Below, one piece after another: positions 19,963 through 63,549 of a DNA stretch of 64,000 bases. The DNA is taken from the NCBI GenBank assembly GCA_963969345.1, contig OZ017768.1, positions 8,580,718-8,644,717 of the forward strand, given 5' to 3'. The stretch comes from Turbatrix aceti. Taxonomy: Eukaryota; Nematoda; Chromadorea; Rhabditida; Panagrolaimidae. The first letter of the stretch is position 1. Each line of letters opens with the position of its first letter. The notes beneath the pieces are model-generated. The model made no database searches and was not told where the DNA came from. It saw nothing but the letters and a program-made list of their open reading frames with translations. The position numbers and the translations under genes are program-made.

Positions 19963-20034
19963 CTCTCCGGCCGGGAATCGAACCCGGGTCTCGCACGTGA
20001 CAGGCGCGGATACTTACCACTATACTACCGAAGA
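19963..20034 (-). tRNA. tRNA-Asp (GTC)
   Basis: A 72-base cloverleaf. Acceptor TCTTCGG pairs with CCGGAGA, discriminator G. Anticodon loop is CTGTCAC with anticodon GTC, and the T arm contains GGTTCGATTCC. It is identical to the copies at 59828 and 63478. Flanking sequence is also shared (TGCGAAATTTTTCCGCAGGGTCC before, ACATTTTTGCCTTCTATCC-like after), showing dispersal of a larger unit. Confidence 0.95.
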
Positions 20035-26210: not shown

Positions 26211-29200
26211 TTACTTTTTGCCTGTTATCTCCATAATAATGCTTTTTTTATGTTTTTTCCAATATTTTTTAAATTCGTGACCCATTTCCTCAAAAGCTGC
26301 TGCTCTTGGTCCTTCGGAAGAAGCAAGTTCAATAAACTTCGTAGGAACATCTTTCTCTTCTCTAAAAATAGGTTATTGATCAGTGTTGCTAGGCACTTGA
26401 CCCTAGGTTTGTTTAATTTAAAAAATAAGATCAAATTACTTTATAAGATCCTTTGGATCTGTTTTGTATAAGTATTCCAGGTAATCGGTTCTTTCTTTCA
26501 CATTGTTATAAAGTTCTTGTGCTATTTGACCTGTATATTAATGATTAGGATTAGTATGTTAAGCAAGTACACTTACGTTGTTCTTCAGGAGATAGCTTGG
26601 TTTGCTCTTTACTTTCATCAGAAGACTGCGTATTTGGTATCGTTTCATTCTGAAAAAAATAGAAATTATTCTTAAACATTTCTGTAATCTATGTTTTACC
26701 TGTTCTGCGCTTAATTTAGTGAAGCCATTGTTAAGCTCTTTAGGATACAGCTCATTCCGTTTTTTCTGCTGCTCCAGTTGCTGCACCAGCTTTTTCACTT
26801 GCCCCGACAACGCCCCCTGCAACGCCCCCGGCAGCACCTGTTTCTGGGGAAGATTGATTTCCTGCGTTAGTTTCTTTAGCTTGGTTTGCGCTTTACTTTC
26901 ATCAGAAGACTGCGTATTTGGTATTACTTCATTCTGAAAAAATGGAAATTATTCCTAAATATTTCCTAAATATATAAATATTTACCTGCTCTGCGCTTAA
27001 TTTAGCGAAGCCATCGTTAAGCTCTTCAAGATACAGCTTTTTCAATGTTTTGCTAATCTTCTTAAAAATTTTATGAGTAAGTTTCAAAATTATTACACAT
27101 ATTTATTACAACTATTTACATATATTAAAAACTTACTTTTTGTTTTGGATATGCCTTGTGTGCTAATACACGCGTTTGATATTGGATTGCTTCTATACAT
27201 CCCGCAATCTCGTGTGCGTTGTTGCAACCGAGTTTGAATGCAAGTTTGCTTGCCGCTTGCCATAATTCCGGTTCGGGATTATCTGATTTTACTTGAATCA
27301 GCCGATGGAAGTGCGAAATAGTAAACTTTTCAAAACCAGGCAAAGTGATGTTATTGTTTTGCAGAAAATCTTCAAATTTTTTAACATCAATTTCTAATGT
27401 AAATCGGTATTTCTTTATTGTAGACACTGTAATTAATAATTATGACGTTTTCGTTACAGTAAAAAAATCTTACGCTCTTTTTTGTCCATTGTATCGTAAC
27501 TTCTACTTTCCAATACTTGCGTCCGAGCGTAATCAGTTTCATCAAGAATTTTCTCTCTGTCTGAATGTACTGTAACCCATTCATCAATTTCATCAAGAAT
27601 TTTCTCTCTGTCTGAATGTACTGTAACCCATTCATCAATTTTAGCTAACAAGCGTTTGCCAATATCCGTGGATCCATGATTTGTGAATGCTGAAAAAGCT
27701 GCACCATCAATGTTCAGTTGCCCGTTGATGAGAAGAATGTCTCTATGCATTGAAATTGTGGTTTTTTTAAAAGCAAGTTCACTGAAACATTATAAATATT
27801 TACTTATTTGCGAGTAGGCAAAAGTCTAAAGGACGTGAAATACGTTCCATTTTTTTTAATAAAAGTCAATTTTTTCCGTCTCCGACAACTTTTACCCTCG
27901 ACGCTTCCCCATACATAAATACATATAATAGAAAATCTAACCAGAAAAGCTCCTTTGGGTCATCAGCTGCTTTGATTAATCTTATCAGTTGATCGTTCAC
28001 ATTGTAATCACTGGCATCTAATCCAACCAAAATTTTTGTTTTGTAGTATTTAAAACCACCTTTTGCCTCCTCGTCGTCTTTCTACAAAACCATGCTTTTT
28101 TATAAATAATTTAAAAATTGGACAAAGAAACTTATAGGAACTTACAAATTGCTCTTCAAGTTTTGCATCTAGTATTTCACGTTCAGCTTGTTTGTCTTTA
28201 ACTTCTTTCTCACTACGATTCTTTGTTTCACGTAGTCCAATCTCTTTTTCATATTTTGTGCGATTTTCTTGTTTTTCAGCTTTTTGACGGTCCCTAAAAT
28301 TGTACCGTTCTTTGCGGGAACGGTGCGAGAGAAAAAAAATTGCAAAATAAAGAGTGGGGACCGGAGCGCGTGCACAAGCCTTGAAGCAACGAGGACCGAA
28401 AGCAAACTTTATTCAAAAAACGCTAAAAAATTATGACAATTTGTCAGATTTTTTAACATTTTTGTTTACTTTCGAGCAGATTTGTTCCTAAAATTAGTTT
28501 AAACAACTCAAAAACCTTCGATTTTGGACTTTTGCCCCCAATTTGGCTAAAAAATTTTGAAGTTTTAATTGGAGCACTGGCGATTTTCGCTTCGCTCATG
28601 AGCGGGAGCAACGAGCGCAAAAATCCTCCCCCTAATAAAAAAAAAATATACAAAGCGAGCGCGGAAATTTAAAAAAAACGCGAGAGCGGAAGCGGAGCGG
28701 TTGGTATAAAGAGTCAAAATCGAAAACCCTGTTATTGCGGTATTGAAATAATTAGGATCGTTAGGATCATTGGGCGATGCATTACGGCTTTGTCCAACGC
28801 CGCTTGTTTCTGGAGACGATTGATTTCCTGTGTTAGTTTCTTCGGACCAAGTTTCATTACCGACGCTTTCTTGATCATACGTTTCAGAATCCGCTTTTTC
28901 TGCGTCTGCAGTTGCTGCCGCAGCTCCTTCACTTGCACCGGCAGCGCCACCAGCGGTACCTGTTTCTGGAGACGATTGATTTCCTGTGTTAGTTTCTTCG
29001 GACCAAGCTTCATTACCGACGCTTTCTTGATCATACGTTTCAGAATCCGCTTTTTCTGCGTCTGCAGTTGCTGCCGCAGTTTCTTCACCTGCACCGGCAA
29101 CGCCACCTTTTTCTGGAGACGATTGATTTCTTTTGTAAGAATTTATATTCTCGCTGGCTTTATTAGTGGCATTAGTATCTTCTGCTTTCTTTTGCGGCCT

Positions 29201-31236
29201 GTGTACAGAGTTTTCTTTGAACCCAGCTTTATTGCCGGCGCTTTCTTGATCATTCGTTTCAGAAGCCGCTTTTTTATTTATTTCAGAAATAACTTTTTTA
29301 CTTGTACCGGCAGCGGCAGTTGTATCCATGTTTGCAAGTATTTCTTGTTTGTACTCATGCTGCACTTGTTCAAAAACTTTCTTTGCAGTCAGCGGTGAAG
29401 TAACGGCTCCGTAGCACGTATATAAGGAATTTGATAAGCAAAAGTAGTCAAAAGCCGTAATTGGTTTATCATTCTTAAATTTTAGGATCATAGTGCCGAT
29501 GCAAGTAACTACGTTTATACAAGCTGCCGCACAGCGTGAAACGGATAATATGTTAAGAAGTGTCGCTGCAAGCGGCGTCAAATCCTTAAAATTGGCATCT
29601 TTCAGGTCTATTCCGCCAATTCCATATTCGATTATCTTCTTTTGAAAAACCGGAGTCAATACGTTTAGCAGATTTGTAATAATGAAAATAATTTCACCAA
29701 TAATTTCTTCGTCTCCATGGGTCAGCTTGTCTTCGATGCTCAAAAGTGAACTGAAATGAAATACATTAATCATGAATACAACAAAGGAAAATGAAGGTAC
29801 TAACAATACAATTGATGACGCTGTGGTAGCATACTGTAGATATTTATTTCCTATAATTTATAAATACATCATTAAAAAAACTGAGTTTTAAGAAAAATAC
29901 CTTTTTCAACAATGGCACTAAACTTAGTAATCCACTTTGTATTTCTGAACATACCGGCTCCATTAAACAATATAGAAGCACCCATCACAATGTAAGTTGT
30001 GTAAGTTAATGTCCTATATGCCCAACGCTGTGCAGTAGCTTTAATGCTGCAAGATGGTGATTCCGAGATCTCGAGTTCGAGTTGCAAGTTTTCGTCGAAA
30101 GTCGGTACTTTGTCTTTTTGGTTCTGTCCATAATGTCCATTGACAGGATAGCAGCAAAGCGATGGATCAATTACGTTTGTTGTTAAAAAATGATTCCAAT
30201 TTTCATAAAGACGAGCTTGTAGATCAATGTACATTGTCGATCCGCCGGCAGATTTAAAGTAGAAAACTTAAATTGGGTTATCGTCAAGGGTGTCAATCGG
30301 GCCGGGCCGGGCCTGATGGTGAGTCGGCCCGGCCCGGCGGCCCGGTTTTAAAAAAAAAGAAAATTTTAGAACAAAATTTATTCAAAACAGTCAAAAATGA
30401 ACCAAAATCTTGCTCATTTTGAGTAATCCTCTCCCATTATGAATAACAACGTGTATTTTTACCTTTTCAACTCATATTTTTGGACAAATTGAAAAAATTT
30501 AGTAAATTTTGCTTCAATTTTACCCATTGGTAAAAAGGCGGGCCGGCCCGGCCCGGGCCGGGCCGGGCCGGGCCTTACCTCGAGCGGGCCGGGCCGGGCC
30601 GGGCCGACAAAAATTCGGCCCGTTGACACCCTTGGTTATCGTCAGTGATAAGCTAACATATTGTGCATTGCATGAATTATTATTTACTTAAGTTTACTTC
30701 TGTGCAAAAACATTTTTTTTAACTTATTTAAAAGTGTGCAACAACGGGCTTACCTGGAACAGAGGTTTCAACGTTCTCCTGCAAGTATGACATGACGTAG
30801 ACGGTGTTCATAAATACTTCTTCCGTTTTTGATTTTGCCTAGTAATAAGTTTTTAATTCATTTAGCGTAATGTTAAACAAATTATCACCTGTATTTTTTT
30901 TCTCATTTTAATCGCAATTCTTCTCTCTGGTCTACTGTACCATTGGTTTGTGCTGCTAGTCAACGATCGAACTGTTTTTGGGTTCTAAAACATCTGGTAT
31001 TGTTTATTGTATTTCTGTAAACGATTATTTTTTTAAATAAAATTTCTGACGTTTTGGAAGGCTGTAACGAGAATGTGGTTTTCAATAAAAGAATAGTTCA
31101 ACATTTTGTTGAACATAATTCCAGCATTGTTTGTGTAATACGTATTTTGAGCATTAACTGCTCGCTTAACCCATTCCGTTGGATTCTTCCAAGTCAATGT
31201 TGTATTACTTGGAATAGAAGGCTCCTGAGTAGCCAT
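26211..31236 (-). CDS. Large multi-exon protein of unknown function
   Basis: Sixteen exons read along the minus strand: 31236-31051, 30984-30889, 30838-30754, 30266-29901, 29850-29805, 29750-28728, 28293-28146, 28081-27923, 27825-27804, 27781-27474, 27426-27137, 27060-26986, 26933-26700, 26649-26577, 26530-26440 and 26361-26211, about 1,112 residues. All junctions keep frame with GT-AG sites except exons 8 to 9 (27826-27936), where no canonical donor does so. Features: N-terminal KNPTEWVKRAVNAQ; CCYPVNGHYG then a hydrophobic segment (YIVMGASILFNGAGMF); a second hydrophobic region (LLNILSVSRCAAACINVVTC); an acidic Ser/Glu-rich part with a 52-residue tandem repeat; a charged coiled-coil-like stretch (DRQKAEKQENRTKYE); and ILVGLDASDYNVNDQLIRLI. 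It may belong to the eukaryotic DUF4781 group, an untested impression. No catalytic motif recognised. Intron 3 holds a hAT-like element; the intron after exon 6 contains GAGCG-rich repeats. Confidence 0.7.
28806..29128 (-). repeat. In-frame 156-base tandem repeat within exon 6
   Basis: A unit starting GTTTCTGGAGACGATTGATT recurs at 28806, 28962 and about 29109. The period of 156 then about 147 bases is a multiple of three, so the protein gains 52- and 49-residue copies containing SETYDQESVGNE and EETNTGNQSSPET. Confidence 0.85.
30285..30634. mobile_element. hAT-like MITE built of GGGCC repeats
   Basis: Perfect 12-base terminal inverted repeats CAAGGGTGTCAA / TTGACACCCTTG are flanked by the 8-base duplication GTTATCGT (30277-30284 and 30635-30642). 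The inner ends are arrays of GGGCCGGGCC. It lies in intron 3 of the minus-strand gene, just upstream of exon 4. Confidence 0.9.
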
Positions 31237-37249: not shown

Positions 37250-37975
37250 TACTTTACTTTACTTTACTTTATTACTCTTACTCGTGCATAATTACTCATT
37301 ACAAAATTAAAGAGACAGTGATGAGTATCGAGATTGCACGAAGAGGGCGCCGTCAATCGTAGCTACCTGCGTCACGTCGTAGTCCTTAGCAGGAGCGTTC
37401 TGGAAGGCCGCAAAGTCGTCGGTCCATCGCCTCGGAGGGTGGCCTGGCGGACGCTTGTTCTTTGGCGAGGTCGGAGGCACTGGCTGGTCTTGCGGCTTCC
37501 AGTGGCTTAGGCGGGTTGCCCAGTTGTCCGTTGCTGTCTTCTTGGCGAACCTGACTTTGCGCAGCAGGGCCGTTGCGTACCAGTCCTTGAGCTTCGTGCG
37601 TTGATGGATGGAGTCTGACGGCAGCTTGTCGACCAAACGTGCGCTGAGAATAGCACGTTCGAGACGTCGCCTGCCGCGGATGAGCGTCTGAGCTCCGTCT
37701 TTCGTGAGCGCCCACGTCTCACAGCCGTAGAGGACGGCAGGGGTGATACACTGGTGGATGAGGCGGCGTTTCAGGCTCATCTTGACTCGTGGCGCGCGAA
37801 GGAAGTTTCGGTACTTGAAGTAGATCTTTCGGCCGGCTGCAAGACGTCGTGAGATCTCTCTTTTATGGTTTCTCGGCCAGGAAACGAGTTGCCCGAGATA
37901 TACGAACTCAGACACTCTTTCGACCGGTCTGCCGTTGAGGAGAATCTCTGCATCGTCGCCGATGACGTTGGACAT
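37250..37975 (-). mobile_element. 5'-truncated RTE-type non-LTR retrotransposon
   Basis: The minus-strand reading frame (37975 to 37307, 222 residues) is the C-terminal part of a retrotransposon endonuclease-reverse transcriptase. Landmarks are FVYLGQ, RRLIHQC, PAVLYGCETWALT, an Arg-rich R.RRLERAIL stretch, NWATRLSHW and RPPGHPPRRWTDDF. The stop is followed by a (TAAAG)n tail at 37250-37273, typical of RTE elements. The catalytic reverse transcriptase core is absent. It lies immediately upstream of the SecA-like gene. Confidence 0.85.
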
Positions 37976-38239
37976 CCACCTAAAAAACCGAAAACGAAGT
38001 TTTAAAAAAATATTTTAACATTCATATATGTATGTTGATTTTGTAGGATTACCGACTCCGCGTTTTTTTACTACATTTTCAAATGTTTTGACTCGCGTTG
38101 ATAAAAACACGTTGTTCGAGTTTTTTGGCGGATTCTACAATTCTATAAATATCTTATTTTAATAAATTTGTAGTAAAAAACATAACCGTTTTTTTTGTTT
38201 CAGAAAACAAAGCACTGTCAACTAAATACTGCTGTGAAC

Positions 38240-41200
38240 ATGCCTCCTGATCAAGGCAGTGACGATTCGCAGGGTTACGGTATAAATATAAATAGCAAAA
38301 TGTCATCAGTTTTTAAAATTGCATATTTTAGAAAATGCATATTCTCCAGAAGAATTGCGTTTGTTGGTCGCAAAGTCAATTAGTGATGATGTCAAACTAC
38401 GCGACTTGCTTCAGAAAATAGGTAACATTGGTGATGGTCCTATACAGTTTGTAAAGAACACTTTTGAATCTGAGCTTATTAGCGCCGTCAAGGCTGCCAT
38501 CAAAAGCAGGATGACTAAAAATGTTATCAATGGAATCAAATTTGCAAGAAGCGGTATTAAATTAAATTCCGAGTACTTTTCCGACCTGACGCAAAAACTG
38601 ATTAAAAATGAAATTCAACTCACGGACGAAAGACTTGGCAACTGGGAAGCTGACTTTGCACGATTTTACAACTTACTTGAAAGCCGATATGTATCAATTG
38701 ATCTAGAGGAAAAACTTAAGAATCTCATTATTGAATGGTTTGAAGCAGGTGAAATGTCACTTGACATTTGGAAGCAATGGGTTAACTGGTTTACCGAGTA
38801 TGTTGTTTGAAATACTAACAGTAAATTGCAAAATATTCATTTTTTTAAGATGCACGAAAAATGACAAGGAAATTTGTCTTTCATCACTTCGATTGATAAA
38901 GTGGTCGGCGTCGTCACCGAGAGACACCGTCAAGCCAAAATTTATGCGTGCGTTGAATGCTACTATAAGTCTGGATGACTTTGTGGAAAAAACCGGATTG
39001 CAACAATTTCTGAAACTACACCTCGAAGTACCAACGCTTGAAGTCGAAAATATACAACTTGTTGACATAGACGGAAACATTTCCTACCGTACAACGTCTA
39101 CACTCAACGTTATAGGCAACACTATGTTTCTGAGTCTCATTAAGGATCGTCTTGAAGAGCGGATGAAAAGCATAAAGCAAGTCGATTTCGTTGTCAGAAA
39201 TGTGTTCTATATTGACTGTGATCTTACGGCTTCTGTTTGGAAAGGAAAAAACATATCAGTGGCAGCAGACAAAGTCAACGTCTTAGGACAACGCACATTT
39301 GATGTATCCGGTAATGGGTTTCCAAAAATCAACAAACTTAAGCGCGCTAAGGATGGAATCCATGGCACAAAGGGCAAATCTGGTGAAAATGGAAGCAATG
39401 GACGTGACGGAAAAGCCGGAGAATCTAGCGGTAACATAACAATTGTAACGCATGCTATGTCAAATCCCGAAAAACTGACGTTGACGCTAAACGGAGGAAA
39501 TGGTGAAAATGGTGAAAGTGGCGGTGCAGGAGGTGATGGTCAGGATGGCAAAGGAACTGATCAAAAAGAACTGGACGACCTTTGTGTTAAATATAAAAGT
39601 CTTTATCGTGACAATTGGCAGGAAGTATTTGAAAGTTATCTTCCGAATGGTTGGACAAAAACAGAAAATGAAGAGAGTTACTTTAGCACATACATTCATT
39701 ATAAGTTTAATGATGATTTCGGTAGAACATTGCACTACGACTACGGAGCAGATAAAGGATGGACTTATAATTGGTACGAACTAATGATCTGGATTGAAGG
39801 CACTCATGGAACAGATGGGGGAATCGGTGGTCTGAATGGAAAAGGTATGATAGAAAATTCCAAAATCAAAAGCATTTATGTATTATTGCTATTTCAGGCG
39901 GTGAAGGGGGAAATCAAGGCGAATGCTACGTCATAAATCCTGACAATGGCACTGAGTATCCTGTTGTAAAAAATCAGCGCAATGGGGATAACGGTATTGA
40001 TGGCAAAGTTGGTGCGTGTGGAAAATCCGGAATGAACGGCAACGATATTGCTATGATTGATCGTTCAGCTAAGGGTTCAAACAAATTTTATTATGGGGAA
40101 GATGAAAAACACAAATTATCACAAAACTATCATCGTGAGAATGGACAAAACCGAAGAATTAATCGTTACAAGTAAGTTTCTGTTTGTTTGATTACCTAAT
40201 TCACTACATACAATATTAAAAGGTTAATTGTCGAAAAGGATTCTGCATGTTACGCTGAATTTGTAAGACAAAGTCTTCCCCCTGGCGGCTTGAGACAGGC
40301 ACAAAAACAAAAAAAGGAAAAACGTTCATCAGAGGCTCAAATGACTATGAAGCAGTCCATAGTGTTGAACAAAGTGATGCACAAAGCTCAGGAGCACAAA
40401 AACAGAATGGACAGCTCCCTGGGTGCCGCAACTGTATCAATGAAATCAAGTACAACTCAAGCATTCGAAGTCGATGAAGAAGTGGAGGAAGATGAGTCTA
40501 CGGAACAAAAGCAAGAAGTCATTATCGTGAAAGAAGTCAACGAAGATCAACTTGAAAGCCTGAATAACAGAGCACGCAAATGCAAGCTATCACAAGAACA
40601 ATACGTCAAAAAGCTGCTGAGCAAAACGTATAACAGTCAATTTTTGTTGACTCAAGAAATAATTGACTTCTTCTTCATCGAATTTACCCTCGATGTTCTT
40701 GTCAACACCAAAATGTCATTGCTCATGCTGAAAAAATGCTTTCAGTTTAGGGGTGCAATGAGCGATCCTTTAAAAAAAAATTTAATTGCGGCATACCAAG
40801 CAAAAAAAGGAGGTCTAAGCATCGACGAACTTGAGAGCTTGGCAAAATGCGCTTCCACAAAACGAACAAAGAAAAAGGACCTTACTTTGTTTCGTGGCAA
40901 AGTTTCTGGCTACCCGACACAGTGCCACACGGCTCAATTTACTGCAAATACGAATGTAGAAATGGTGGATAAAAAATTTTTTCACAATGTGAAATTTGTC
41001 AATCCAGGTTCAGACAAACTGTGGCATTTCAATGTTTCTGCCGATAAAATCAAAGAAATCATCAACTCATTTTTCACGGATTACAAGTTAAATGCAGTAA
41101 ACTATTATGTGTTAGAAACCATTAGCAACGCTTATGAGAAACTGGAGCCTAAGTATTCAAATGCTTTGTTGCCGTTCAATAGAACAACTGTCACATGGGG

Positions 41201-44200
41201 CGATCCCGAAAGTTGGGACAGATTTAAAGCATCTTTAGATGTTACGAATTCTGTTGTTGTCAACTTGATAAAAACCATTGACAGCGATAAAGAATGGTTG
41301 GCTGAAACCTTTAAACCTGTAAATGAAATGATTGAGGGCGCAAGTTACATGGATAAGTTTAAAAACTTGCAAGTCAATGAACTAAAAGAAAGGTTTGGAA
41401 TTGTTCCTAATTTTCATGACGGTACCAAAGAATTTGAAGCAGTTCAGTACATCATCAGATTTTACTGGCAAATGAAAACACTGCTTGTATTCAATCGAAG
41501 ACTTTTGGTTATTTCGCTTCTTTACGATGGTGAAACAACCGAAAAACCATTTGTTGTATTGAAAAGCTACGCCACATTAAAAATGGAAGACATGATCAAA
41601 AGGGCTAAAAGCAACCAAATTGATCTTGGATCTAATAATAGTGAGCAGTACATGTTAGCCAAAGGTTTCCAAAGCATGACATTCCGATACTTGGTTTCCG
41701 AAATAAAGAGTCTACGCATTGAGCTTTTTGGAAACGAAAACTATGGAACAGTTGAGTTGCTGGAAACGACTGGTGAATCCTTTGAGAACGTTGTTCAATT
41801 ATATTACAATGGAAATCGATTCTACCACATCGAAAGCGATGATAATCTGAGAAAATTGTTGAAAGCGCGAGAAGCGACAAAATGGCAAGCCGATTTCGAT
41901 GAAAATTACAAACGAATCGATGAATTGCCTTGGGATTATGCATTTTCATCGGACAGAAACCAATTTTTAAACTTCTTTCCTTCAGTTTTCGCTTCGGCTG
42001 TCCTTGAATGGATTGAATGCTACGTGAAAGCAACCAACGATGTTACATTCCTGAAAATGCTTCACGAGCGTTTTGAACTTGACGGCAATCATTTTGAAAT
42101 TGCTGATTTCCAGTACATTATTTCGACTGCCATTCTTCTTCAAAATGAGTTCAAAGTAAGCTCTCGTTTTATTCTGAACTACGCATCTTCCGTTCCACAA
42201 GCTCAACTTGTGAATGCTTTTGTTATGATACGACTCGAAAGTCAATGGAAAACCCAGCTCAAACAAGCCACTGAAATCAGACCCCTGTTAAACTCTATTC
42301 TAAACAATCGTTTCAAAATTTTGCTCGTCATCAAATTGCAATTGACCAAATTGCAATTTGATGACGAACAAAATTCAGATGCTTCGAAAGTCAGCGAAAA
42401 TTTGCTGCGTAAGATGCTACTTATGATTCGGCACACATCCGCCAGGAACGAGCAACTCGAAAAAATGAGTTTGAATTATTGGATCGCAGCGTCAGAAAAG
42501 CAAGAGTTAACGGAACTCAGTGATGCATTTAAGAATCTCGGGACTATTGGTTATTACATCATTGTTTTGCGGCAGGGAAAAAAAATGGATGAAGCCAATT
42601 ATTTGGAAGAGCTACTTACAAATCCAAATGCTGAATACCACATTCCTGAAAAATTGATTGCACAAGTATGTACGTTGATCACGGCTGGAGAAGTCAACTT
42701 TGACACAAACTACAGAAACAATTTGGAAAAAATTCTGAAGACGCTAACAATGGAGAGTGGATTGAACAAAACCGGACAACACCGCTTAGTAACTGATGAA
42801 ATATTGCAAGCCAAAATGATTTCAAAAGTGGCCAAAACCGATGCTTACGACAGTGTGATCTCTGAGAAGCAACGTAATTTGAAAGTGATTAGTGACTTGA
42901 TCAGTGGAATGCGTGAAACCCAAGATGAAATGAAGAGCTTTTCTTTGCAAATGAAAAAAATGATTGATGATGGTTCTCACGAGACTGTAAAGCTGCTAAA
43001 CGAGATCGATGATTGCATTGCTCAGCTTCGAAAGGGTATCCGACTTCGCGACACTCAGAAAATGGCCGTAATTTATTCAGTGCAGAGTGAGAGTAACCTT
43101 TTGGCCCAGGTGAACACCGGAGAAGGCAAATCCTACATTGTCACTGCTACGGCTATCATTCGCGCTAAAAAGTCTAATTCATTTGTGGACATTATCACGT
43201 CTTCACCAGTGTTGGCACAACGAGACTCCCATGACATGTCTGACATTTATTCAGCAATGAATGTAAGCGTGGATCACAACTGTCACGATGAAATGGAAAA
43301 ACGAAAGCAAGCATATCAGGCGAATGTTGTCTACGGTGAGATTAGCAGATTCCAAAGAGACTATCTCCTGCATAACTTTTATCGAAAGAACATTCTTGGT
43401 GAACGCGAACGCAGCAAGGGATGCGTGATTGTCGATGAAGTGGACAATATGCTCTTGGACAACGGTAATAACATGTTGTATTTGAGTCACAGTGTTCCTG
43501 GAATGGATTTATTGGAGCCACTATTTGTACACATTGAACGCGCCGTGTGTTCACCGAGCGTCAGAGAAAATCCGGACCAAGTATTTGCGACAGAGTACAT
43601 TAAAGCAACAATTCTGTCAGATTTACTTGGACGACTTCCAAAAGAAGATATTCCAAAACTCGCAATTAGTTTAAAAACTAAAGGCAACACCTTTTCAATT
43701 TGGTCAAAACTGATCACCGCTCAAGTTATCGATTCCGAAGGCTATCTCATGATTCAAACAGATTTCGATTTCGAAAACAGAAAATCTGATATTTCAACAA
43801 CTCTTCTTGAAACGACAACGGAAGATCATGCAATGAAAATTCTTGTTTGCCTTAAAGCCATCATAAACAGGCCTAGGGAAATTGAGATTCCTAGATATTT
43901 GGTACCTTTTTGCCGACGGCATCTGACTGAGTACATAGAAAATGCTAAGCGAGCCTTGTTCATGAAACCCAATGAAGCTTACGTCGTGGACACTGATCGG
44001 ACGGGCGTAGACAGCGATCTTGCACCCAAAGTGACCATCATTGATCAAAATACAGGTGTTGACTTGGCTACGTCTCAGTGGAGTGAAGGCTTACAACAGT
44101 GCGTTCAAATGAAACACGGATGTCGCGTAAATCCGATTTCAATGAAGGCTGTCTTTGTCTCTAACGTAAACTATCTCAAAGGGTATTCCAAGATCAATGG

Positions 44201-47200
44201 TCTCAGTGGTACTCTTGGATCGTACGAAGAAAGCAAAACATTAGTGGATCTGTACAATGCCGATCTAATTAAGATACCTACGTTTAAAGCGAAACGGCTT
44301 TACGAACATGTTCCCGTCATTGCGGATGATGAGGACAAGTGGCTCGACGCCCTGTTTGATGAAATTGAGGATCAAGTTAAAGCTGAAAGGTTGGTGTCTA
44401 AATTTTGTTAGTACAGAAATAGTAATTGCGCGCTAACAAGGATGTTTCAGATCTGTGCTCGTCATTTGTCATTCTATTTCAAAAGTCATGTTTATTAAAG
44501 ACGGATTGCTGGAGCGTTACACAAAATTAACGGGTGTTAAAAAGAAATTACTCAACTGTTTTGAAGAGGAAAGCATGGTCGTCTACAAAAGAGAATACGA
44601 TGAGTTTGAATTTGGTGACAAAAACGAACTTCGATCAGGTAAAAAGTGAGTAAAAATGATAAAAATAATACTTCTAACTTTGCAGGAAGAGTAATTTTGG
44701 CCACAAACCTAGCCGGCAGAGGCACGGATATAAAATTAAGTGATGAACTGAAGAAAGCTGGCGGTCTGCACGTTATCGTTTCATTTCTACCCGAAAATTC
44801 GCGCATTGAAGATCAAGCTTACGGTAGAGCAGCAAGATGTGGCGACCTGGGCTCAGGTCAAATAATCGCCATAACGGATCAAACCGATGCCTCCGGTAAA
44901 CTTTTATCGGTATTCGACCTGAAGCTGTTTCGTGACAATGCTGAAGTTCAGAGACTAGAATCCTTGATTTCGTACTATAATTATCACACAAAAATTGAAG
45001 AAGACTGTCTCACGGCTTTCAAAGATCATTGTTTAACAGCTCTAACGCAGATGAATAACAGCAAAAAGATGGGCGACGAAATTCCTACAGAATCAGAAAT
45101 TATTTATTTGGCTTTGTTAGACGAATGGGCACTCTGGTTGGATTCTCAAGCTTCGGTTGTCAAACAGTGCGCGCAAGACATGAGCGATAGTCAACGATCC
45201 GACATCATTGCTTCAGTTAAAAGTTTCTTGGATGCGCACCCGATTGACGGCATCAACAATGCTTTGAAGTGGATTTCCAGTCCTCAACCAATGCTTGCTC
45301 TCGGAATTTGCAAACTTCATGCAAATGAAATTGATAACGCCAGTGAAATTTTCACAAACATTACCCAAAAGTTCCCAGAATTTGCGGGAGACGCTTGTTA
45401 TTACCTCGGAGTTATTTCTCAAAAAAATGTCAGAAAGGTATCAAAGGTTCCAAAAATTAACGCAGAAAACGCTGGTTGGTTCAAAACAACGCTAGGCAGT
45501 ATCGTTAACAACATCAACGATTTAACTCTCTCAGTCTTGAATTCAAAGAAGGATCTCTTGCCTGAATGCTTGTGCGAAATTGATGACGACAAGCGAATTG
45601 AGACGGAAGATCACCTGATCCAGGCGATCCAAGGATTTAATCGTCGAGTGGAACGAAAGAAGGAGCAAGGCATCATTATTTCACGCCTGCAGCAAGCGGT
45701 TGGTGGTCCTCAACTCATCAAATCAAATGGATTTCAGTGTCAATGTGATGACATGACAAATGTATACGAGTCTCTTTGTACCAGTGCTTACAACATGATG
45801 GGGCATCCGATATCGTTTGCTTCTTTCGGTGGTCGCCAAAACACAATTGAAGAAAAATTCAAGGCGCAGAAAAATTTTCTGAAATGCTTGCGAGAAGGAT
45901 ACGTCACCGAGAAAGCTGTTAATCATAACATCATGGATTATCAGTGCGAAGTTTTGAAAAAGAAGTATCTACTGTCAAAAAAGAAGCTTCGAAAAGTTTT
46001 TGAAAGCATGGTTGAAGCCGAAGGCGGAGACAAGATTGAATCCTACAATCGAACGTACTTGCAAGAACGCATTATTCAACAAAAGTTCCGTATTCCAAGA
46101 CGAGAAGAATTTTGGGGATTCTTAGATGCTTACTCTTGTTTTTCGGAAAAGATTGAAATTTACATTTTGAATACTTTTCCCACTGATGGAGAAATTCAAG
46201 AGCTCAAAAACTTGCAAAAATGCAGTGCGCCAAAGCTTTCATCTTTGAGAATTCAACTCAGCGATTACGATTTGTCGACAAAAGTACTGTATGCCGTTGA
46301 AGATGTCGAAAAAGCTTTTGAAAACAACAAAGACAAGCTGGAGTGGCTGGTGTCAATGGAATACTTAATCAAGGATGCTACGGCCATCATAAACCGAGAA
46401 ATTTTTGACAAAATCCCTTTCATGCCAAACTATGATTACTTTACTGATACCGATGTCGCCGATTGGCTTGAGATTTCTAACAAAGAAGCCAAATGGATTG
46501 TCGATAAACTGCTCATATCAGGAACTCTCCGTGAGGAAGTCACAATTCTGACCATTATCAACCCGGAGAAACCAGAGTTGTCAGAAGAACTGTCTAATAT
46601 GTACGACGTGCTCAATTCCAACGACTTGAAAAAGGTTGACGATTTGAACTTTGATGTCATTCAAGAACTGTTCAAAAAAAGTGAAAAAGAAACCGACGAT
46701 ATTATGAAAAAACTGACGAACAACAAGATTCTTATTCCAAAACACACAAGATTCATCTTTCAAAACATTGACGACTTCGATTGTTCTGCGCTGCCTGAAT
46801 GTCTGAAGTCATTAATGGAAACGTTTCTCTATCACAAATTCTCATACACCTTTGCGTATAACACTTTACAAAAGAGTCTGGATGCTGCAATAAAACATTC
46901 TGCTGCAAAGAAACCTATTATGTTGGCCTGGAAACCGCATGACGAATTAAAGAAAGATCTAATCAAGTATGGATTTCTTCACGATCATAAGTTAGAACTT
47001 CGTGATAAAGATTACCTAGATGAAGAAATGCAGAAAAGTCTTGAAGAGGTGGAAAAAAAAACAAAGCCGCGGTTGTTCATAAAATCTGGAAATCTTATGT
47101 CAACAAAAAAGTTTTTCAAAGAAGAAAATGTGGCTGCGAGTATGGATATTCAAAATCAGGCAATCAACCACATTCGACAGGTCGGAAAAATTGGTGAAAA

Positions 47201-49151
47201 CAATACATGGATAATTTGGCTCGTCTTGAAAATCGCTTTTGCAGTTTTTATGGCTTGGAGTATTCCAGGGCTGATAATGATGGCCTTCGACATTGCCATT
47301 AACATGAAAACGTATTTCCAAGCAGCGTTAGTAGTGATTGCCGCTGTGGGTACTATGCTATACTTCATCCAGTCTGTGAAAGCCAAATACGTAACGCAGA
47401 CTGGTCGAGAGAATCCACAAGAAAAACACGCAATGCTCATTGACTTCCACGCCAAGAACGTGGAAATGAAATCGAAATATAAACAAGAATGCAAATTGGC
47501 CGAAGTTGGTTATTTTCTGATTTTTAAAAACAATTTTTCATATCTCGTTTTAGGTCATCACATCATCCATTGTTTCTAAATTAGACCACGTTTTCCATAA
47601 TCCTAATACTTTTGCTGCCGAAGTGAACGATGCAAAAACGAATTTAATCAGTACGCTTCAGACATCAAAAGTTGGCCCGAGGCGATTTACAAAAAATGTT
47701 CAGTTGTTCTTGGATCAGCCTCACAATTGGCGTCTTTTCCGTGAAAATGTACGAAATATCTTAACACATATCAAATTGCCTTTGTGTAAGAGATATTACG
47801 CAACTTTGGAGAACAGAAGAACGCCTCGCGGATTTGACATCGATGGAGCATTGCGCGACACTCAAAAGCTCAATGCCGATCTGAAAATTAATTTCCCAGG
47901 CACCGAGAAACGTTTAGTGGGATCATTGTTAAGCAAGATTATTGAAGATGCCGGGGTTATCCTGCAAGAAGCCACTGAACAAACATCTGATAATAACGGC
48001 AAGTCTTCTGCATCTTTGATTGCACCCGGTGAAGATCCTGATCCAGGGAAAATGCCTGCTGAATTTGTGGTGCCCGGATCTGAAATTAATATTGATTCTG
48101 ACTCTGATTCCGACAACAATGTTGATTCTGACTCTGATTCTGATTCTGATGTTGATTCTGACTCTGATTCTGATTCTGATTCTGATGTTGATTCTGACTC
48201 TGATTCTGATTCTGATGTGGATGTTGACTCTAATTTGGACAACGACAGTCCGGCCAATTTCACGAAAGCTGTTGACGCATTCATAACTGCACTCTTCTCA
48301 AAGACCAAAGACGTCTACGAGATAGAATTAACCAACAACATTAGTAAGTCATTGTTGAATGCTTTCCAGAGATACATAAAAGCTGCAAATGACGTATCCG
48401 AAGCGCCTAAAGGATTCGCAGATTTTTTTAACCAAGCTGTGGATGAAAAAAACGACATTGAGAGCCGGAAGAAGCAGGTGACAAGTCATCAATCGATGGC
48501 ATATATTATAAACGACCTCCAAGAAGTTGTTCGTCTGAAGTACGCTAATCATCCGACTGAAGAATTGCTGAAAGTCATGATTCAATATGGCCATGCAATG
48601 GAGCCTAAAACCATGGAAAAATTAGTATACGCATTGCATCGAGTATTGAAACAATACATTGCCCCCCTAGACGTTCTGAGTGTTGTTCTCCACCTAAAAA
48701 ATGGTAATGTGGTTTTCAATACCAAGCCTATATCGTAAGTGTGTTTTTGGCATTTGAGTTTCATTCTATAAATTGTTTTTAACGTTAAAGAGACCGAACA
48801 AAACCATTCATTATCTCCCTCGACATTACCACCGAATATTTTTACATTTGCCAAGACGATTCTCGAAAAATTTTCAAAAACAAAAATGACGCAGATTATG
48901 TTGGCAGCTGTCTCTTTGAATCGATAGCTCAAAACAATCCTCAAGCTTCAGAGCTTGTCAAACAAGGAGCGGATGTGTTTCGAGAATTGTTGCTGCAGCA
49001 AATTTACGCAGAAGTTGTCCATGCTCCCGAATTTTACCAGAATAAATCCACTGCACTGTCACCATCCAATGCCAAAACAAAGTATTTAGATATTAGCCCT
49101 CAGCAAGTTTTTACAGCAGCAAAAAACAAGTTTACTTCGATGTTTTTTTAA
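38240..49151 (+). CDS. Giant protein with a complete SecA-type translocase motor
   Basis: Nine exons (38240-38279, 38332-38797, 38850-39844, 39898-40171, 40223-44389, 44451-44638, 44686-47504, 47554-48734, 48791-49151) sum to 10,491 bases, 3,496 residues, all with GT-AG introns of 47-62 bases. The N-terminal 330 residues are helical. Gly-rich collagen-like tracts follow (about 338-364, 384-404 and later), then about 1,100 unidentified residues. From about 1530 the protein follows bacterial SecA: Walker A NTGEGKS near 1556, LAQRD, Walker B VIVDEVDNML (DEVD 1663-1666), WSEGLQQCVQMKHG near 1878, LSGTLGS near 1917, ATNLAGRGTD at 2049-2058 and QAYGRAARCGD near 2087. SecA is the ATPase that pushes preproteins through the bacterial SecYEG channel; animals normally lack it. 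Hydrophobic segments lie at about 2882-2944. A Ser-Asp repeat runs about 3161-3212. The SecA zinc tail is missing. No signal peptide. A TTTGTTTCAG acceptor lies 36 bases before the ATG. Cellular role unknown. Confidence 0.88.
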
Positions 49152-59827: not shown

Positions 59828-59899
59828 TCTTCGGTAGTATAGTGGTAAGTATCCGCGCCTGTCACGTGCGAGACCCGGGTTCGATTCCCGGCCGGAGAG
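59828..59899 (+). tRNA. tRNA-Asp (GTC)
   Basis: Identical over all 72 bases to the copies at 19963 and 63478. Complete cloverleaf, anticodon GTC. It lies about 360 bases upstream of the PRMT1-like gene and is duplicated with it. Confidence 0.95.
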
Positions 59900-63477: not shown

Positions 63478-63549
63478 TCTTCGGTAGTATAGTGGTAAGT
63501 ATCCGCGCCTGTCACGTGCGAGACCCGGGTTCGATTCCCGGCCGGAGAG
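63478..63549 (+). tRNA. tRNA-Asp (GTC)
   Basis: Third identical 72-base copy, with the same flanks as the copy at 59828. It belongs to the duplicated tRNA plus methyltransferase segment. Confidence 0.95.

Follow-up and report, generated by a model that had tools for sequence, protein, structure and literature searches.

A window of 64,000 nucleotides from the nematode Turbatrix aceti (GenBank assembly GCA_963969345.1, contig OZ017768.1, positions 8,580,718 to 8,644,717 of the forward strand) holds a nine-exon gene model at window positions 38240-49151 (+) that encodes 3,496 residues, with a SecA-type motor near the middle. Judged by sequence comparison, this protein is a member of a little-studied family common to animals and intracellular bacteria through repeated gene transfer, for which we use the label giant SecA-motor proteins. 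We give a probability of about 0.6 to the reading, suggested by sequences and predicted structures, that such a protein is an ATP-driven polypeptide mover set in a giant scaffold.

The catalytic motifs of the motor lie in order (Walker A, DEVD, SGT, AGRGTD, and arginine finger), together with the further landmarks LAQRD (residues 1589-1593), QWSEG (1877-1881), and GLSGTLG (1918-1924). The initial annotation had listed the SecA landmarks in this order over about 560 residues; the computed span is 541. When a 700-residue piece with the motor was scanned, Pfam SecA_DEAD scored 104.4 bits (cut-off 24.6) against 31.7 for generic DEAD, the comparison named beforehand as the one that could tell against SecA, and P-loop_SecA scored 52.1 bits (cut-off 27). 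A phmmer comparison of the window motor with a solved SecA gave an E value of 5.5e-35. By these profile scores the motor is of the SecA class rather than a generic helicase. Its parts lie at the following window positions:

42972-44885 (+): SecA-type motor, residues 1509 to about 2110, two introns within (motifs, Pfam, phmmer, tree)
43107-43133 (+): Walker A QVNTGEGKS, residues 1554-1562, Lys 1561
43434-43445 (+): DEVD box, residues 1663-1666
43476-44075 (+): preprotein cross-linking (PPXD) region, limits approximate, by alignment (SecA_PP_bind, 22.9 bits; family profile against E. coli SecA)
44712-44729 (+): AGRGTD motif, residues 2053-2058
44823-44837 (+): GRAAR arginine-finger motif, residues 2090-2094

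Aligned by profile to E. coli SecA, the family covers NBD1, PPXD, and NBD2, and the match is significant as far as the end of NBD2. The structure predicted for a relative (P0015) aligns to positions 14-778 of the SecA structure 6itc over 625 residues, nearly full-length SecA. The motor had initially been called complete; the family profile supports that description for NBD1, PPXD, and NBD2, and the scaffold and wing come in only through the relative's predicted structure. The C-terminal zinc motif C-x-C-x7-9-C-C/H had no match in the window protein, and some true SecAs also do without it.

The SecA-motor gene is a nematode gene and not contamination. Splicing the window sequence reproduced the start, stop, strand, coordinates, eight introns, and length first proposed. 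All eight introns are GT-AG, 47-61 nucleotides long, and have a GC content of 19-36%, compared with 36-41% in exons longer than 100 nucleotides. Because 24 splice combinations keep the frame open near the eight intron sites, with alternatives at introns 1, 3, 5, and 6, the joints at these four introns rest on splice-site consensus, which gives 3,496 residues; the 10 combinations that were translated have 3,490-3,498 codons including the stop. The T-rich site upstream of the ATG would fit spliced-leader trans-splicing or an intron in the 5' untranslated region.

38240-38279, 38332-38797, 38850-39844, 39898-40171, 40223-44389, 44451-44638, 44686-47504, 47554-48734, 48791-49151 (+): exons of the 3,496-residue gene
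38189-38203 (+): T-rich 3' splice-acceptor-like site TTTTTTTTGTTTCAG, 36 nucleotides upstream of the ATG

The two nearest relatives (P0001 and P0002) align through introns 3-5, so some introns look young; the matches begin near intron 2 and stop near intron 6. A 27-nucleotide inverted repeat, 96% complementary with a 5-nucleotide gap, lies inside a coding exon at window 42317-42375.

On its 11.6-Mb contig the window occupies 8.58-8.64 Mb; the genome has 59.9 Mb in 28 contigs. Some of the 20 neighboring open reading frames that were scanned match a receptor tyrosine kinase with receptor L domains, a nematode cuticle collagen, a copper monooxygenase, and an arginine methyltransferase. The genome contains 145 exact copies of the spliced leader SL1 (none of the reversed control) and at least five SecA_DEAD loci, namely, the window gene, three on C1 (c1a, c1b, and c1c), and one on C5 (c5), the paralogues being diverged from the window gene. 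All four paralogues match the window protein in the N-terminal, premotor, and motor parts and three of them further downstream; pieces of them are 39-71% identical to the Diploscapter pachys protein P0138, the sole comparison of that kind. Between c5 and c1c the nonsynonymous rate (dN) is 0.144, the synonymous rate (dS) 1.18, and dN/dS 0.12 over 1,519 codons; the ratio is 0.22 for c1a-c1b and 0.10 for c5-c1b, with dS above 1.7 in both pairs, and c5-c1a gave no usable dS. These low ratios indicate that the paralogous copies evolved under purifying selection. The motor of c1c is broken within the PPXD region by about 6.8 kb (L079:8760-9901 and L080:1-5708). Stretches resembling tRNA lie near both edges of that interruption, and another lies inside it.

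Searching with the motor returned 3,777 proteins at an E value of 0.001 or less from 7,990 candidates scored. Animals among the best 120 of the 3,777 include Panagrolaimus, Pristionchus, Globodera, Culex, Anopheles, Daphnia, Harpegnathos, a spider, a mayfly, bdelloid rotifers, an acoel, and several fish, and further members come from Papilio, the newt Pleurodeles, and Diploscapter. The premise that animals normally have no SecA thus gives way to relatives in many animals, several of them carrying database names of bacterial or "chloroplast" SecA, and a eukaryotic-type secA was described in print in 2013 (PMC3639933).

On the prokaryotic side, a scan of 84,980 species with two peptide patterns found 64 loci, some sharing a genome. 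Sorted by record title (one Firmicutes-type locus was untitled), they comprise 13 Rickettsiales, 5 Parachlamydiales, 6 Amoebophilaceae/Cardinium, 16 Legionellales (many of these matches weak), 6 unspecified Alphaproteobacteria, 5 other Bacteroidota, 5 others, and 8 of Firmicutes type, of which 7 have frames of 800-855 residues, like ordinary SecA. The longest bacterial frame reaches 4,507 residues, stop to stop. Phages contributed eight records with weak matches, none from Wolbachia, and plasmids 44 records, the best two being endosymbionts with Euplotes as source. Two contigs of a viral collection (L070 and L071), whose viral nature is putative, each encode a giant SecA frame, one of 3,555 residues and one of 3,557, that includes the hairpin domain described below.

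The trees started from 175 matching motors; removal of 23 that were partial or too long left 152, which with five from this genome made 157; E. coli was added, and five later proteins were added for the second tree. From these, 106 rows for a quick tree and then 62 for a careful one were picked by hand for spread. P0001 and P0002 are among the dropped motors, their frames stopping before motif VI. In the 62-motor tree, the three canonical SecA rows are cut off by a 100/100 branch and the window copy falls outside their clade. It belongs to a 14-row clade (99/93) with four Panagrolaimus rows, two Pristionchus rows, the four paralogues, which form a group of their own separate from it, and three other rows. 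This clade adjoins three rotifer rows within a 29-row clade (100/98), which otherwise contains arthropods, an acoel, and, nested among the arthropods, two Rickettsiales rows. On the other side of the same tree, among bacteria, lie fish, the newt, Papilio, a bee, Rotaria socialis, and Globodera.

A single animal clade (32 animal rows versus 25 bacterial) was rejected by the approximately unbiased test (p-AU 4e-42), and the tree implies at least seven animal-bacterium changes. Because the animal members are not one clade, the tree indicates that the gene crossed between animals and bacteria repeatedly. The old transfer from a bacterium that the initial annotation inferred is one possible direction of this exchange. 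In the quick 106-row tree, the group containing the nematodes also includes P0003-P0005, joined there by the Rotaria Silwood2 protein P0006. These four, with P0139, are labeled or group as bdelloid rotifer, yet sit with nematode copies; some rotifer copies may come from nematodes, or the reverse, or the sequences may be mislabeled.

The regions on either side of the motor are long. The window protein is collinear with Rotaria P0139 (3,508 residues) over window residues 17-2950 and with Diploscapter P0138 (3,366 residues) over 122-2283, at 32% identity in both. Since these relatives are collinear, their alignment indicates that giant size is no nematode addition, and the proposal that the protein was later extended at both ends finds no support; bacterial members are giant too. 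The regions outside the motor are as follows:

39355-40046 (+): glycine-rich G-x-y stretches, residues 338-550, one intron within
40545-42887 (+): premotor region, mostly helical, residues 700-1480 (AlphaFold2)
44886-46175 (+): postmotor region, helical, partly TPR-like, residues 2111-2540; SecA scaffold and wing expected at its start
47208-47378 (+): hydrophobic pair, residues 2885-2903 and 2923-2941 (Kyte-Doolittle), at the hairpin domain's place
48094-48231 (+): Asp-Ser repeat, residues 3164-3209
48652-49025 (+): OTU-like tail, permuted, probably degenerate, residues 3350-3455; Cys3417 (48909-48911) kept, His not

Four G-x-y runs of at least five were found, and a run of seven occurred in none of 2,000 shuffles of residues 331-600; the N-terminal region around these stretches is similar to relatives from Anopheles, Daphnia, Rotaria, and Teleopsis. 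AlphaFold2 modeled residues 593-1488 with a mean confidence (pLDDT) of 77.7, and Foldseek with this model had no match at an E value of 0.001 or less, an 896-residue model being a poor test for single domains. An OTU domain in the premotor region was considered and rejected: Foldseek returned many OTU chains, all with E values of 0.94 or more, a second aligner had none among its 50 rows, and Pfam found none in four relatives at an E value of 1. Behind the motor, scaffold and wing are expected on the basis of a relative's model that aligned to SecA beyond the motor. The postmotor region is similar among animals and three Rickettsiales proteins, and its TPR matches are weak and lie in relatives.

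Two modules beyond the motor recur in the family, and profiles for both rejected the idea that the bacterial loci share the motor alone. At the C terminus of several members, H-[FYW] followed by N-N-C-L-F-D-A-[IL]-A describes an OTU-like peptidase with its halves swapped. The Pfam OTU strand half comes first (L019, profile 68-96 at residues 38-66, E value 0.0019) and the cysteine half after (L027, profile 5-46 at 115-157, E value 0.027), both below the curated cut-off; upstream in L027 a second OTU copy scores above it (2.5e-9). A hidden Markov model (HMM) of the permuted tail built from 13 seeds matched 36 sequences at an E value of 0.001, seeds included, among them Culex, Condylostylus, Harpegnathos, a bee, Papilio, Rotaria, and the newt, which has Ser in place of Cys. 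Among other bacterial members scanned, one has ankyrin repeats (L035), one a subthreshold RickCE-like match (L029, E value 0.0042), and one SecA and helicase domains only (L012).

The last domain of the window protein reads ...FIISLDITTEYFYIC...VGSCLFESIAQ...FRELLLQQI. Neither the permuted-tail HMM run directly against the window protein nor Pfam OTU run against its last exon (119 residues) matched at an E value of 10. A profile of nine hand-cut tails of nematode or rotifer type (the window's and those of eight relatives) met the permuted peptidase in one comparison at an E value of 1.3e-4, probability 53%, and score 33.8, the 42 aligned columns lying around the Cys helix; none of 30 column shuffles scored above 12.4, and an earlier five-row profile had given an E value of 0.045 and a probability below 1%. 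By eye, none of the nine tails has His at the aligned place, some having one elsewhere on the strand, and two have Cys, the window's and that of c1b. The OTU-like module is thus probably present in the window copy, and noncatalytic.

The second module is a postmotor domain of about 250 residues found in many members, with the motif W..VA.lGiaQIa.Gv...G..LI.EGisDii.AI...G.FSW..Y...KaISlA. Its core is hydrophobic, for which reason we infer a membrane hairpin. An HMM from 38 seeds matched 75 sequences at an E value of 0.01, seeds included, in animals and bacteria (this set and that of the tail HMM both hold some near-duplicates), and a search with the single domain found 16 proteins, 15 with SecA_DEAD and one with P-loop_SecA only. 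Four sequences were scanned with Pfam, and none gave a convincing match for the domain. Searched for as a pattern, the motif turned up in 46 of 117 members, where shuffled tails would lead one to expect 3.15; because examples had been seen before the pattern was drawn up, the weight lies on the HMM and the single-domain search. The domain is present in 15 of 174 genomes of a Rickettsia's order and 3 of 289 of its class, the center genome counting in both; without it the figures are 14 of 173 and 2 of 288 (p 4e-5), and the class sample may overlap the order. In P0003, a hairpin HMM match with an E value of 1e-9 to 1e-6, depending on search size, aligns at the hydrophobic pair of the window protein.

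From these parts we propose, with moderate confidence, that the motor would hydrolyze ATP in the cytosol and, without SecY, use its NBD-PPXD clamp to pull or thread unfolded polypeptide, with the long N- and C-terminal regions selecting and holding substrates. The flanking regions might also attach the motor to a membrane. Where other members have a C-terminal OTU-like peptidase, the window copy has probably lost catalysis and would be left with a binding module. The task could conceivably be to deal with foreign or damaged proteins where the host cell meets intracellular bacteria; a role in symbiont conflict is a tentative idea to which we lean less than to its opposite. On the bacterial side, the peptidase and ankyrin modules and the choice of hosts suggest effector-like proteins. 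A bolder version, and a rather unlikely one, is a translocation machine in one protein, with SecA motor, membrane hairpin of its own, and OTU-like tail, passed between host and symbiont, the nematode copy being kept by the host with its peptidase disarmed. If that were so, a cell would have a way, independent of SecY, to pull, trim, or expel proteins across a membrane.

Several observations weigh against a polypeptide mover built in this way. In the window gene, the SecA_PP_bind score falls just below the Pfam cut-off of 23.5 bits, and the folded motor belongs to a relative, with 34% identity to the window protein, rather than to the window protein itself. The hairpin HMM has no match in the window protein at an E value of 1, with an unfiltered score there of -1.0. 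At the hairpin's place, no segment in P0010, P0011, P0138, or P0139 exceeds a hydropathy of 1.43, and in the frames scanned none exceeds 1.5 in c5 or c1b (c1a has two and c1c one); with nothing comparable in these six, the hydrophobic pair is not general in nematodes. The dN/dS values concern the other paralogues rather than the window copy, and c1c is itself interrupted. Polypeptide movement is predicted here from genes and modeled structure, and it is distribution alone that ties the animal copies to antisymbiont defense.

Other explanations are less probable. A SecA fold turned to nucleic acid, as an RNA or DNA helicase or a sensor like RIG-I or DinG in an immune-type scaffold, is unlikely, given that SecA rows fill fold ranks 1-28 for the P0015 model, and align over as many as 625 residues, compared with 337-362 in the helicase rows listed, and that SecA-only domains are not expected in a helicase. 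A selfish or fortuitous passenger that spreads by copying between hosts and symbionts, expanding and decaying with no steady host function, would suit the patchy distribution, the many animal-bacterium changes, the one broken copy in five, and the large Daphnia and Harpegnathos clades described in PMC3639933; against it stand the dN/dS of 0.12 between two paralogues, the long collinear frames retained in another nematode and a rotifer, and the supported clade of nematode copies, and we consider it quite improbable. That catalytic parts do decay in this lineage, as the nine tails indicate, would also suit a structural scaffold whose motor no longer works. The Walker A Lys, DEVD, SGT, AGRGTD, and both GRAAR arginines are nevertheless kept in the window and six aligned relatives (one with GRASR), which makes a dead motor very unlikely. 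Bacterial contamination or a chimeric assembly could be suspected from the bacterial and chloroplast names of several relatives, and against the nematode neighbors, the eight introns, the five loci dispersed over long contigs, the SL1 copies, and the collinear relatives in Diploscapter and Rotaria it has next to no chance.

A few features around the gene deserve mention. Directly upstream, a 222-residue open frame at 37307-37975 (-) lies in a stretch of higher GC, has no Pfam match, and is possibly part of a mobile element. Three tRNA genes of equal score (56 bits) lie at window 19963-20034, 59828-59899, and 63478-63549. An open frame at 28565-29806 (-) has near-repeated segments and a DUF4781 match just above the cut-off; a link between it and the SecA gene was looked for and none was seen.

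SecA is usually regarded as absent from animals. Selection on a SecA motor in a nematode genome, and the existence of relatives in rotifers, arthropods, fish, and a newt, would imply that animal cells contain an overlooked class of protein movers. Part of the reason for the oversight would be the database names, which label members as bacterial or "chloroplast" SecA. Traffic with intracellular bacteria would make a host-symbiont role directly testable in laboratory nematodes. New here are the nearly full-length SecA fold predicted for a relative and the hairpin domain and permuted OTU-like peptidase as shared modules; the matches listed from the open-licence literature held nothing on a nematode, rotifer, or vertebrate giant SecA or on either module.

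Canonical bacterial and chloroplast SecA shares NBD1, NBD2, and probably PPXD with the window protein, and scaffold and wing with a relative's model; the window copy differs in its separate tree branch, its giant flanks, and its lack of the zinc motif. We would expect no SecYEG in an animal. The permuted halves in the tails of several members resemble OTU cysteine peptidases (PF02338) and differ from them in being swapped, and the window copy has neither the catalytic His nor a Pfam OTU match. Giant eukaryotic-type secA has been known from insects, Daphnia, and Wolbachia since 2013: Duplouy et al. described two very long genes in Wolbachia wBol1-b, wBol1_1092 (11,829 nucleotides) and wBol1_1091, with full-length matches in ants or mosquitoes and a near-full-length one in Daphnia, and proposed transfer from eukaryotes to Wolbachia (PMC3639933). 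SecA-like domains are also among the listed effectors of Amoebophilus (PMC3482391) and occur in giant actinobacterial toxins, where a secretion-helper role was suggested (PMC8195603). Phage WO carries eukaryotic-type secA genes (PMC5062602, PMC9203015), and the SecA of its eukaryotic association module (PMC5062602) is, by description, likewise a eukaryote-like SecA held by a symbiont's phage. The wBol1-b genes, likened by their description rather than by sequence comparison, are similar in several respects: they too combine a SecA domain with unusual length, a eukaryotic clade apart from bacterial SecA, and exchange with intracellular bacteria. Unlike that account, section 9 of which names no nematode, hairpin, or OTU-like module (PMC3639933), the present one concerns nematodes and a gene model with eight introns.

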